Assembly: GCF_000382705.1 (NCBI RefSeq)
Contig: NZ_ARQE01000005.1
Coordinates: 186,001 to 250,000, forward strand
DNA: 64,000 bases
DNA from: Aureimonas ureilytica DSM 18598 = NBRC 106430
GTDB lineage: Bacteria; Pseudomonadota; Alphaproteobacteria; Rhizobiales; Rhizobiaceae
Direction of reading: 5' to 3'
Of this stretch, positions 39,345-50,900 are shown piece by piece; the stretch's first letter is position 1, and each line of letters starts with the position of its first letter. The notes below the pieces were generated by a model. The model searched no databases. It saw nothing but the letters and a program-made list of their open reading frames with translations, and was not told the DNA's origin. The position numbers were made by a program, and so were the translations under genes.

Positions 39345-39740
39345 AAGGCCAGCCGGCCTATAAGCCGGGTTCTGTGCGACGGCTTGCGCCGCCCGGCGAC
39401 CATTCCTCTGGGACGCCGCTCGCGCGGCGCCTCAAGCAACCCACCCGAACGACCGACCCGGAGAAGGGCTGGCGGTTTCCCGCCGCGTCGTTCCTATTCG
39501 GTTTTGCTCCCGGTGGGGTTTGCCCTGCCGCCGCCATTGCTGGAAGCGCGGTGGGCTCTTACCCCACCGTTTCACCCTTACCCCCGAGCCGAAGCCGAGG
39601 GCGGTTTGTTTTCTGTGGCACTTTCCCTGGGGTCACCCCCGCCGGGCGTTACCCGGCACCGTTTCTCCGTGGAGCCCGGACTTTCCTCCCCCGCCGTCTT
39701 TCGACATATGACGGGAGCGGCCGCCCGGCCGGCTGGCGGG
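39345..39740 (-). ncRNA. rnpB: RNase P RNA (bacterial type A)
   Basis: The catalytic RNA that matures tRNA 5' ends. Recognisable conserved parts on the minus strand: GAGGAAAGTCCGGGCTCC near the 5' end (P4 strand), the CAGGGAAAGTGCCACAGAAA segment in the middle, and ACAGAACCCGGCTTATAG near the 3' end. The outer ends GCCAGCCGGCC (minus 39737-39727) and GGCCGGCTGGC (minus 39358-39348) pair perfectly as helix P1, which fixes the boundaries to within a few bases. Length is about 395 nt. Confidence 0.95.
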
Positions 39741-39772: not shown

Positions 39773-39787
39773 GCGAGGATCGGCTTA

Positions 39788-39948
39788 GAGCCCGTCCGAA
39801 AAGTCCGCCGGGTCGGCTCGCCGGGTCTTTTCGCCGCCCTCCTCGTTGCCGATCCTCGCCGATGCCACCCGCATCGACTGCGTTCGGCGCCTCGATCGCG
39901 ACGAAAATTCCTCGGCGATCCTCCGCCGGTGACGTTCCGGACGGACTC
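39788..39948. mobile_element. MITE-like element, copy A
   Basis: 161 bp with terminal inverted repeats GAGCCCGTCCGAAA (left) and GAGTCCGTCCGGAA (right, complemented), flanked by TTA duplications at 39785-39787 and 39949-39951. The right duplication is the TAA stop codon of the SLT transglycosylase gene. The interior matches copy B (49737-49898) along its length with about one indel. The best-conserved blocks are CTTTTCGCCG, CTCGCCGATGCC, GCATCGACTGCG, GACGAAAAT and ATCCTCCGCC. No transposase is encoded. The GAG...CTC ends and TNA target resemble IS5-family (IS1031-like) elements, from memory of that family. Confidence 0.75.
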
Positions 39949-40527
39949 TTAGAGCGAGGCCAGAACCAGCTTCACCTTCTCGCAGTAGCGCGCCGAGGTG
40001 GGGTTCATGCGCTTGGAATAATGGCCGGCATTGTATTTCAGGATCGTGCCGCACAGCGTTCCGCCACCGCGACGCTCGGCGCCCGCCAGATATTTCATGC
40101 CGTATTTGATGTTGACCTCGGGATTGTAGAGGTCGGTCTTGTCGCCGACGAAGCCCATGTCGCGGGCGGTGGCAGGCTTGATCTGCATCAGGCCGATCTC
40201 GCCGGCCCGGCCGGTGACCTCGATGCGGTAATTGCTTTCCACCGAGACGATGGCGTGGGCAAGCTCCACGGGTACGCCGTTGGCCTTGGCTTCGCGCTCG
40301 ATAATGTCGGCAAAGGGCCGATCCGAAAGACGCTCGGCCTCGTCGCCCTCCGCCCCGTCGGCATCGGCCGGCGCGACGAGCTTGGCAGCGGGATCGGTCA
40401 GGGTGGTGTCGAGGCTGGTCTTTTCGATCGGAGCGGTGGAAGTGGAAGAGGCGGTATCGGCGTTGGCGGCGGAAATCGGCGCAAGCGCGAGTGTCACGGC
40501 GGTGGCCATGGCAGGCAGTCGTCTCAT
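39949..40527 (-). CDS. Lytic transglycosylase, SLT domain (exported)
   Basis: A 192-residue exported murein lytic enzyme. Signal peptide about 1-23 (cleavage after ANA), a low-complexity Thr/Asp/Ala linker to about residue 70, then the SLT domain: VSVESNYRIEVTGRAGEIGL with catalytic Glu97, MQIKPATARDMGF, and YNAGHYSKRMNP. It cleaves the MurNAc-GlcNAc bond with 1,6-anhydro product. Its TAA stop codon is the target duplication of element copy A. The 202-bp gap before the amidase gene should hold its promoter. Confidence 0.93.
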   Translation of the reverse strand: MRRLPAMATAVTLALAPISAANADTASSTSTAPIEKTSLDTTLTDPAAKLVAPADADGAEGDEAERLSDRPFADIIEREAKANGVPVELAHAIVSVESNYRIEVTGRAGEIGLMQIKPATARDMGFVGDKTDLYNPEVNIKYGMKYLAGAERRGGGTLCGTILKYNAGHYSKRMNPTSARYCEKVKLVLASL

Positions 40528-48781: not shown

Positions 48782-49660
48782 TCAGAGCCCGTAGCGCGCC
48801 CAGAGAGCGCGCTCCTCGGCGGCGTCGGCAAGACCCGAGGCGAGCGTCGCGCCGACATCCTGCAGGGTCGCTCCGCCCGTGAGCCGGCTCGCCCCGGCCC
48901 CGCCGCGCAGGCCGAACAGGCCGCGCTTCTGGCCGATGAGCTGGAGCTTGACCGTCTCGCCGTAATGGTCGCGCAGAACCGTGCGCAGATCGCCCAGGCG
49001 ATCCACGAGGCCGAGATCGAGGCCGCGCAGGCCCGACCAGAACAGACCGGTGAAGAGGTCGGGATGATCGGCGAGCTTGGCGCCGCGCCGGCTCTTCACG
49101 AGGTCGATGAAGGTCTGGTGGACGTCGAGCTGGAGCGACTTCAGGTGCTCCACGTCCTCCGGCCGCTCGGGCCGGAACGGGTCCAGCGTCGCCTTGTTCT
49201 GCCCCGCCGTGTGGACGCGGCGCTCGACGCCGATCTTGCGGATCAGCTCCACGAAGCCGAAGCCGCCGGACACGACGCCGATCGAGCCGACCACGGTGGA
49301 CGGGTCGGCCACGATCTCGTCGCCCGCGCAGGCGATCATGTAGCCGCCGGATGCCGCGACATCCTCGCAGGCGATGATGACATGCTTCTTCTTTTCCTCG
49401 GCGAGATCGCGGATGCGCTGGAACACGAGGCGCGACTGCACCGGCGAGCCGCCCGGCGAATTGATGGAGATGGCGACGGCCGGCGCGTCCTTCATCGAAA
49501 AGGCCCGCTCCAGAAGCGGGGCGACGGAGGCGAGCGAGATCGACTGGCGGAACGGCCCGGACGCGCCGGCCATGATAACGCCCTGAAGGCGCACCACGGG
49601 GATCACCGTCCCTTCGGAGCGGAAGCGTTTGGGGAGAAGCTTCGTCAGGCGGCTGGGCAC
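48782..49660 (-). CDS. S49-family peptidase (SppA/SohB-like)
   Basis: A 292-residue serine protease of the signal-peptide-peptidase class. VIPVVRLQGVIMAG is the first strand, SINSPGGSPVQSRLVFQRI the crotonase-like oxyanion loop, and EDVAASGGYMIACAGDEIVA carries the catalytic Ser. No membrane segment is evident, so it is a short SppA/SohB-type form, possibly peripheral. The GTG at 49660 has GAGG seven bases upstream; a TTG at 49666 is possible. Element copy B lies upstream. Confidence 0.9.
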   Translation of the reverse strand: MPSRLTKLLPKRFRSEGTVIPVVRLQGVIMAGASGPFRQSISLASVAPLLERAFSMKDAPAVAISINSPGGSPVQSRLVFQRIRDLAEEKKKHVIIACEDVAASGGYMIACAGDEIVADPSTVVGSIGVVSGGFGFVELIRKIGVERRVHTAGQNKATLDPFRPERPEDVEHLKSLQLDVHQTFIDLVKSRRGAKLADHPDLFTGLFWSGLRGLDLGLVDRLGDLRTVLRDHYGETVKLQLIGQKRGLFGLRGGAGASRLTGGATLQDVGATLASGLADAAEERALWARYGL

Positions 49661-49736
49661 GGGCAAACCTCGGATCGCGAATCGTGAGGCTCCATGTAGG
49701 AAGCGCCACGCGCCGCCGCCAAGCGCCGGGCCTTAA

Positions 49737-49898
49737 GAGTACCTAACAAAACCTCGCGGGGTCGGCTGATCGGTTCTTTTCGCCGGCCGCTTTGTCGCAA
49801 ATGCTCGCCGATGCCGCCGGCATCGACTGCGCCTTGCTCCGCGCCGTCTGACGAAAATCCCTCGACCATCCTCCGCCCGGAGGTATTGTTAGGTACTC
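49737..49898. mobile_element. MITE-like element, copy B
   Basis: 162 bp with perfect 13-bp terminal inverted repeats GAGTACCTAACAA, extending imperfectly to about 20 bp, flanked by TAA duplications (49734-49736 and 49899-49901). The interior matches copy A (39788-39948), but the ends differ almost completely after GAG. The stop codon of the methyltransferase gene is formed as TA from the duplication plus the first G of the element. No transposase is encoded. Confidence 0.75.
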
Positions 49899-50695
49899 TA
49901 AGAAAGGGAGAGATCGGCCTCGCCCCGCGACACCGCCGCCCGCAGGTCCGCGTCGAGGATCACCGGCGGCAGGATGCGCAGCGGCGCGCGCGAGCCGCGC
50001 ATTCCCGACACGAGAAGCCGCAGCGCCGGGGCGTCCGGCGCGGAATGCACCGCGCGCAGCGTCAAGGCGCCGAAGCGCCCCTCCGCGCCCTCCAGAACCG
50101 AGCCGAGCGTGTCGGGCCGCACGATCAGGACAAGCGACGCGCCATGGCGCGCGAGCGCGCCGGCTACCGCCAGCCAGCGCGTGAGCATCTCGGGCGAGGC
50201 CAGGGATTTCGCCGCGCCGCGCAGCGCGTCGGGCGACACGCGCCCGCCCGGCGGATGAAAGGGCGGATTGGACAGAACCCAGTCGAAGCCGTTGTCTGGC
50301 AGGCCCGCCGCCTCGCGCGCCGCACGGGGCGCCAAAAGATCGAGCTCGGTCACGCGCAGCCGGCCCGCCAGCGCCGCGTTTTCGCCGAGCGCCACGCTGT
50401 CTCGCGCCAGCTGCGCCATGACCGGGCTGCGCTCGGCGAGCGTGAGGCGCAAGCCGCTCGCGCGGCTCGCCGCCGCGAAGGCCACGGCCCCCGCCCCGCT
50501 CCCCATGTCGAGCGCCTCACCCCTTGCCTCGCGGGGCACGCAGGCCGCCAGAAGCAGCGCGTCGTGACCGGCGCGAAAGCCGCCGCGCGCCGGCTGGAGA
50601 AGATGAAAGCCGCCACCGAGAAATGCGTCCTTCGACACCTCGCCCGTGGGCGACGCGCCGGGCGCGGCCTCGTCAGCTTCGGTCGGAGAATTCAT
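49898..50695 (-). CDS. TrmN6-like tRNA/rRNA adenine-N6 methyltransferase
   Basis: A 265-residue class I SAM methyltransferase. FLGGGFHLLQPARGGFRAGHDALLL is the family N-terminal segment (about 25-50), LDMGSGAGAVAFAAA the SAM loop, and VLSNPPFHPPGGR the NPPF motif of N6-adenine methylases. TrmN6 of E. coli modifies A37 of tRNA-Val. The ATG at 50695 falls inside the end of the DUF2007 gene, so the two overlap by 23 bp. Its TAG stop is shared with element copy B. Confidence 0.86.
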   Translation of the reverse strand: MNSPTEADEAAPGASPTGEVSKDAFLGGGFHLLQPARGGFRAGHDALLLAACVPREARGEALDMGSGAGAVAFAAASRASGLRLTLAERSPVMAQLARDSVALGENAALAGRLRVTELDLLAPRAAREAAGLPDNGFDWVLSNPPFHPPGGRVSPDALRGAAKSLASPEMLTRWLAVAGALARHGASLVLIVRPDTLGSVLEGAEGRFGALTLRAVHSAPDAPALRLLVSGMRGSRAPLRILPPVILDADLRAAVSRGEADLSLS

Positions 50696-50900
50696 GGCCG
50701 AGTTCCGCGTCGCGCAGGAGGCTGCGGGCTTCCTCCAGCCCATCCTCGTCCACGAGGAGCCGGCGCGGGATGGCGCCGATCGAGCCGTCGAGAATGCTCA
50801 TATGGCCGTCCGCCACGAAATGGGCGATGCCCGCGTCCTTCAGGAGCGCCGACAGGAAGGACAGAAGCACCGGGTCGTTGGAGCGCAGGAGTTCGATCAT
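50673..50900 (-). CDS. DUF2007 family protein
   Basis: A 75-residue protein starting MIELLRSNDPVLLSFLSALL, with FVADGHMSILDGSIGAIPRR and LLVDEDGLEEARSLLRDAEL, the pattern of the small DUF2007 domain (called putative signal-transducing, unproven). The ATG at 50900 is preferred; the longer frame to 50936 is unlike the family. It overlaps the methyltransferase gene by 23 bp and is divergent from the polyprenyl synthase. Confidence 0.8.
   Translation of the reverse strand: MIELLRSNDPVLLSFLSALLKDAGIAHFVADGHMSILDGSIGAIPRRLLVDEDGLEEARSLLRDAELGHEFSDRS

Follow-up and report, generated by a model that had tools for sequence, protein, structure and literature searches.

The window, a stretch of 64,000 nucleotides (positions 186001–250000 of contig C5 in the 5.09-Mb draft genome G000 of Aureimonas ureilytica), contains two short repeat elements, referred to here as copy A and copy B. 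Copy B is flanked by a methyltransferase-type gene and a peptidase S49 gene. Copy A begins 51 bases upstream of the 5′ end of the RNase P RNA gene (39345–39736, minus strand). By position in the window, the features are as follows:

49737..49898, minus strand (the strand with the conserved, more stably folding motif): copy B, a 162-bp element, from its inverted ends, blastn and fold energy
49737..49749, plus strand: left terminal inverted repeat of copy B, GAGTACCTAACAA, end type A, with near-identical ends on the full-length IS L220
49886..49898, minus strand: right terminal inverted repeat of copy B, GAGTACCTAACAA
49734..49736: left target duplication of copy B, TAA
49899..49901: right target duplication of copy B, TAA
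49776..49862, minus strand: inner conserved core of copy B, from model R2 (G000:C5:235776-235862:-), common to elements with unrelated ends
49898..50743, minus strand: methyltransferase-type gene (PF05175); the last base of its TAG stop is the terminal base of copy B
48782..49666, minus strand: peptidase S49 gene (PF01343), on the other flank of copy B
39788..39948, minus strand: copy A, 161 bp, with ends GAGCCCGTCCG / GAGTCCGTCCG, end type P
39785..39787: left target duplication of copy A, TTA
39949..39951: right target duplication of copy A, TTA, which is the TAA stop of the adjoining gene on the minus strand
39827..39912, minus strand: inner core of copy A, from model R2 (G000:C5:225827-225912:-)

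The terminal inverted repeats of copy B are perfect over 13 bp, and in 100 shuffles this 13-mer, allowing one mismatch, arose 0 times. As the initial annotation had stated, these ends are unlike those of copy A (GAGTACCTAACAA against GAGCCCGTCCG / GAGTCCGTCCG) and the two elements share one core: they are identical in 118 of 165 aligned columns. The family membership of both copies rests on long blastn matches and a covariance model. A shared 12-mer, GCATCGACTGCG, was discarded as family evidence, having been found 22 times at two mismatches against 22.05 expected.

The methyltransferase reading frame ends TCT TAG on the minus strand, and its last G is base 49898, the first base of the element on that strand. 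With copy B and one TAA removed by eye, the end would read TCT TAA, which agrees with the earlier proposal that the element's first G turned a TAA stop into TAG. The relative G013 lacks the element; its version of this gene ends TCG TGA, and the orthologous site is a single TCA. Interrupted matches at the copy B locus also occur in other relatives, and the empty junction was established from G013 alone.

A blastn search of the same genome returned 30 match rows (E-values from 3.5e-117 to 5.3e-4); in some cases several rows represent the two strands, or fragments, of a single copy. The covariance model, built from 23 copies of this genome, gave 43 matches in the genome itself and 279 matches in 14 of the 21 genomes of the genus, where both strands of a palindromic copy may count twice. 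Matches were present in 9 of 121 genomes at the family level and in 8 of 297 at the order level, the A. ureilytica genome being counted both times. In a separate search of plasmid records at an E-value of 1e-5, three records of Aureimonas sp. AU20 were the sole matches. From the 279 matches, 131 loci were extracted, mostly the best-scoring ones, and decayed copies are therefore under-represented. Clean elements of 156–166 bp, too short for a transposase gene, were obtained from 124 of these loci, a length window having been applied when rows were kept. The loci left out (L012, L061, L062, L063, L068, L156 and L158) had an insert, the wrong length or unclear ends; L155, trimmed by one base at each end, was kept among the 124 and omitted from the border count (123 copies). 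Rfam 15 gave no match to copy B at an E-value of 1, none to copy A at the gathering score, and none in nine carrier loci at an E-value of 0.01.

Several individual copies are unusual in form or placement. L012 (G000:C1:214484-217576) has an extra GC-rich hairpin inside the middle stem, with a 196-base model match at G000:C1:215970-216165. L030 (G000:C4, match 407231-407252) is a 51-bp copy in which the interior is deleted and only the end arms are present, with borders TGA and TAA. On contig C1 of G013, the region from ∼1.95 to 3.1 Mb (1.15 Mb) holds 0 of the 38 hand-listed copies, among the matches listed; one further match lies inside it, at 2157612.

Identical 3-mers border 52 of the 123 copies, all of them TNA, and 12 shifted offsets gave 0–5; placement of the borders was not blind, since identical flanks earned a bonus in the 23 copies from A. 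ureilytica and a bonus for T and A only was used for the others. By subset, identical borders were seen in 14 of those 23 copies and in 38 of the other 100, leaving 71 of the 123 without them. The edge of the element coincides with the exact end of a long coding-like frame in 66 of the 124 copies, the frame being on one strand in 34 of them, on the opposite strand in 30 and on both in 2. Among TNA sites in the flanks, 191 of 3945 are such frame ends; many of the 3945, however, are within genes, and selection would act against insertions there. About half of the studied copies lie exactly in stop codons; the likely reason is that both TAA and TGA conform to the TNA target and that an insertion there leaves the gene unharmed. 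Orientation with respect to replication in G013 was 24 against 14 by hand count, with the origin assumed at coordinate 0, and was not significant.

Where the initial annotation had envisaged two end types, we found nine among the 124 copies: A (33), T (33), C (22), F (14), P (12), U (4), S (3), G (2) and one single. The types were assigned by hand-made rules, after which 19 rows were reassigned by hand. Across copies the two arms change together, and the ends are indeed kept as matching pairs. Full-length IS of the genus carry three of these end types. Type A ends are found on L220 (845 bp, borders TTA/TTA), type C ends on L205 (842 bp, TAA/TAA) and L188 (857 bp), and type P ends on L207 (911 bp, TTA/TTA) and on L193, L206 and L221 (907 bp). 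The borders are identical TNA triplets in three of the seven loci (L220, L205 and L207); L188 and the L193/L206/L221 group have a TNA on each side, but the two sides differ. The ends of these IS and of the short elements are near-identical, and by eye the shared stretch covers only the ∼16 terminal bp.

The proteins of L207, L193 and L205 match NF033580, PF13340 and PF01609, with NF033580 above its cut-off, including both frames of L205; L220 was assigned by its PF13340 match and a reading of its frame. By these matches the partner IS are IS5-family elements, and they may belong to its IS1031 subgroup. The genus search gave 101 PF13340 matches, and 81 loci, some overlapping and some cut by contig ends, were inspected. 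No partner IS was seen among them for types T, F, S, U, G or the single type. In the A. ureilytica genome no IS with the ends of copy B was found: six near-matches of the end all lie inside short copies, and no GAG-ended IS was recognised among 13 PF13340 matches, some of which are at contig ends. The near-identical ends on full-length IS for types A, P and C support the idea, raised for copies A and B, of one core mobilised by several transposases.

The copy B family is a non-autonomous transposon (MITE). Its members are short, multi-copy and without a transposase gene, and have paired terminal inverted repeats; a target-site duplication and one empty orthologous site (in G013) were observed; and ends are shared with an autonomous element for three of the nine end types, at the seven full-length IS loci.

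The initial annotation had suggested comparing end types with a phylogeny of the core. On a core tree of 117 columns, with the ends excluded, end type changes 14 times; the least possible number is 8, the mean for shuffled end types was 75.1, and 0 of 200 shuffles were as low as 14. One lineage of 26 rows contains 17 C and 9 A, and another of 32 rows contains 23 A, 5 C and 4 U. The tree is based on few columns, with 40 of its 120 inner branches open; its starred branches force at least two changes for type A and at least three for type C. Types A and C each lie on separate core lineages, and therefore ends have been exchanged. End type mostly tracks core lineage, yet has been swapped several times. 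The two outcomes that had been named as contrary to this picture, unrelated cores or a single end type, were not what we found: the cores are related and the end types many.

The other explanation offered at the outset was an RNA hairpin maintained by compensation. Compensation was supported, since among the 52 consensus pairs in the 23 A. ureilytica copies 32 have changed on both sides, but the favoured fold proved to be on the complement of the strand originally described. Predicted RNA folding energies for copy B were −89.1 kcal/mol on the minus strand and −72.8 kcal/mol on the plus strand, and for copy A −99.3 and −76.4 kcal/mol. The minus strand had the lower predicted RNA energy in 120 of the 124 copies (mean −95.9 against −78.1 kcal/mol), and was again lower with DNA parameters (mean −49.8 against −41.9). 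The transposase and hairpin explanations are both partly supported and are not mutually exclusive.

There was also an asymmetry in the mismatches. On the plus strand of the window, 59 pairs showed 394 A.C and 150 G.T mismatches; in 54 disjoint sister pairs (identity of at least 0.75) the counts were 149 and 74. Of these sister pairs 37 leaned towards A.C, 8 towards G.T and 9 were even, and of the column pairs 33, 15 and 11, respectively (p=0.013; bootstrap A.C share 0.59–0.74). As an A.C on one strand is a G.T on the other, wobble pairs are favoured on the minus strand. By region, the signal (A.C:G.T) comes from the terminal repeats, at 58:17, and from the middle stem, at 35:7; it was absent from the outer core, at 30:28, and from the inner core, at 26:22. 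The lean had the same direction in each of the five large end types. Changed C-G pairs (101 against 57) contributed as well as changed A-T pairs (48 against 17), making cytosine deamination alone a poor explanation. The asymmetry could be the mutational footprint of a single-stranded stage rather than of selection.

An inner-core model (built from 54 sequences, with rough E-values, the weakest near 1e-5) was used beyond the genus. The A2 set omits the outside loci L185, L186 and L268 (3 of 24) and the genus representatives L078, L134, L149 and L159 (4 of 37). At class level the model matched in 37 of 385 genomes, representing 32 of 277 genera; at phylum level it matched in 23 of 398, and 14 of these 23 lie outside the class. 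On the motif strand the sequence reads AGGCGC-stem-CGnAG-hairpin-GCGAGGA-stem-GCAACG. This inner motif is present in Alphaproteobacteria and outside the class; the elements that carry it have one core (∼160 bp) or two (∼240–305 bp) and lie at TNA, YTAR or CTAG targets. Outside carriers include L310 and L313, single-core elements with GAG ends, and two-core elements of ∼240–305 bp, often with CTAG borders. In L311, L314, L318, L328 and others, two opposite cores lie ∼20 bp apart in one element, so that each strand bears one motif-strand copy. The elements of genome G148 measure 102–308 bp, have CAGGCTGTTGAARAACTC ends and lie mostly between CTAG. There, one end type is found on elements of 102, 164, 173, 264, 272 and 308 bp (L279–L308), and a longer one, L288, has two core matches.

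Seven plasmids (Cupriavidus, Comamonas, Diaphorobacter and Mitsuaria), five of whose records were inspected closely, match the outside element L339 only over 51–67 bp within the core, at 84–87% identity. The exact motif pattern, taken from such outside elements, was present in at least 120 stretches of named genomes. We take the 80 matches listed to comprise, by name, 71 Burkholderiales, 2 Betaproteobacteria, 6 labelled only Proteobacteria or bacterium, and 1 Desulfovibrionaceae. They yielded 62 distinct elements with both ends, which fall into 22 rough end-type clusters, a few of which may be one type cut at a different base. Between clusters, identity was 0.27 over the terminal 20 bp, near chance, and 0.90 in the core, a value inflated because the motif pattern fixes most positions. 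Borders of the pattern-found elements include YTAR, CTAG and TAA, and the outside end types presumably belong to IS5 and IS481. Twelve patterns for the outside ends gave 0 candidate partner IS in the loci examined. Of four 40-bp end queries against plasmids, two were matchless, one gave a weak Rhizobium match and one matched a Comamonas plasmid at 7 places.

With the motif strand set by sequence alone, that strand folded better in 62 of the 62 elements; once the core was removed, this still held for 61 of them. In the terminal 20 positions the motif strand had 82 G.T and 17 A.C mismatches. Counted by end-type cluster the result was 12 against 4 with 6 ties (p=0.077), and this weaker test indicates that part of the strength in the 62 elements comes from related copies. 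We tentatively suggest, at somewhat less than even probability, that the inner ∼50–90 nt live as a transposase-independent parasite. In this view a motif with a strand-specific fold would bind a conserved host factor, in the form of RNA or of single-stranded DNA, and would time and again adopt the ends of whichever IS is active.

Might the hairpin instead be selected for a function in host mRNA, as a 3′ UTR stabiliser, terminator or attenuator, with mobility secondary? Compensatory change, the preference for G.U on one strand and the 66 of 124 copies at stop codons would all suit such a role. However, copies follow stop codons in both orientations (34 against 30), and the A.C:G.T counts are alike for the two orientations at gene ends (117:45 and 103:40), which indicates that the host transcript does not choose the strand. 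An RNA acting in the host mRNA was rejected on this orientation evidence, and we regard a host-mRNA function as an unlikely primary explanation. Since gene orientation is unbiased, the constraint seems to lie with how the element itself propagates, whether in the form of RNA or of single-stranded DNA. G.U stabilises RNA more than G.T stabilises DNA, which leans us slightly towards RNA. Recombination of the attC type was also considered. The fold of the bottom strand matters more than sequence in integron attC sites, and we take GCCTAAC/GTTAGGC to resemble attC boxes; such box-like sequences occur only in end type A, and this candidate was rejected. The attC sites have no TNA duplication, and the Aureimonas ends resemble those of DDE elements.

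Quasi-palindromes are corrected through template switching in replication, and this process alone might match the arms while the folding itself is unselected. It would account for arms that change together and for the 59 double changes between Watson–Crick pairs in the 54 sister pairs. Acting alone, however, it predicts equal numbers of G.T and A.C, against the 74 and 149 seen; the 62-element set is biased in the same direction, and parts of the core are unpaired yet conserved. We therefore think it improbable as the sole cause. Apical hairpins are common in GC-rich repeats and some matches outside the genus are weak (E-value about 1e-6), as they would be if several independent MITE families had converged on a similar hairpin without a shared core. 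Such convergence is very improbable given the full-length homology inside the genus and the exact ∼50-nt motif beside many end types outside the class.

We think it quite probable that copy B belongs to a ∼160-bp MITE that is moved in trans and has replaceable ends and a heritable, strand-folded middle. From the ends, the duplications, the empty site and the full-length IS, IS5-family transposases would move it through its terminal repeats, duplicating a 3-bp TNA. The ends would form a replaceable module: once one arm takes the end of another IS, the second arm changes with it, the likely cause being that the two arms pair and that one serves as template for its partner. The middle would be the heritable unit. 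The wobble asymmetry and fold energies suggest that its one-strand fold is either maintained by selection or the source of a strand-specific mutational mark as the element propagates, and that the motif strand folds at some stage when it is single, as RNA or as DNA.

The element resembles IS5-family/IS1031 MITEs in being short, with IS-like terminal repeats and a 3-bp TNA duplication; it differs in having one core with many end types, only ∼16 bp shared with the IS, and a strand-specific fold. In the available excerpts, IS1031 members prefer TNA with a 3-bp repeat, and ISLrh is 857 bp with inverted repeats beginning GAACCTGTC (PMC12016507); IS1237, of the IS5 family, has ends GAGGTGG/GAGATGG and the repeat TTA (PMC2516522). 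MITEs may have only the terminal ∼20 bp in common with their IS (excerpt of PMC3852290). The RIME, Sm repeats and A/B/C palindromes of rhizobia are dispersed intergenic sequences with conserved sequence and secondary structure (excerpt of PMC2573895); they were set beside the Aureimonas element by description only, and so may be identical to it. Transcripts of the Coxiella QMITEs form stable stem-loops (excerpt of PMC10969869), and the partial descriptions found of these and other bacterial MITEs mention neither exchangeable ends on one core nor a strand bias. No description of one core with many ends was found in the mostly freely accessible literature, including an excerpt of PMC7371123, and none joining Aureimonas and MITEs.

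The usual description of MITEs makes them relics of a single IS that rely on its transposase (same excerpt of PMC3852290), and our reading is that a core that changes transposase is new among them. Such a core, staying the same while the ends around it are exchanged, would be parasitic on other parasites and able to outlive each transposase. The strand bias points to a single-strand step in the life of the element. To our knowledge, such a step is outside the usual picture of MITEs. With about half of the studied copies in stop codons, the family also touches the ends of genes.
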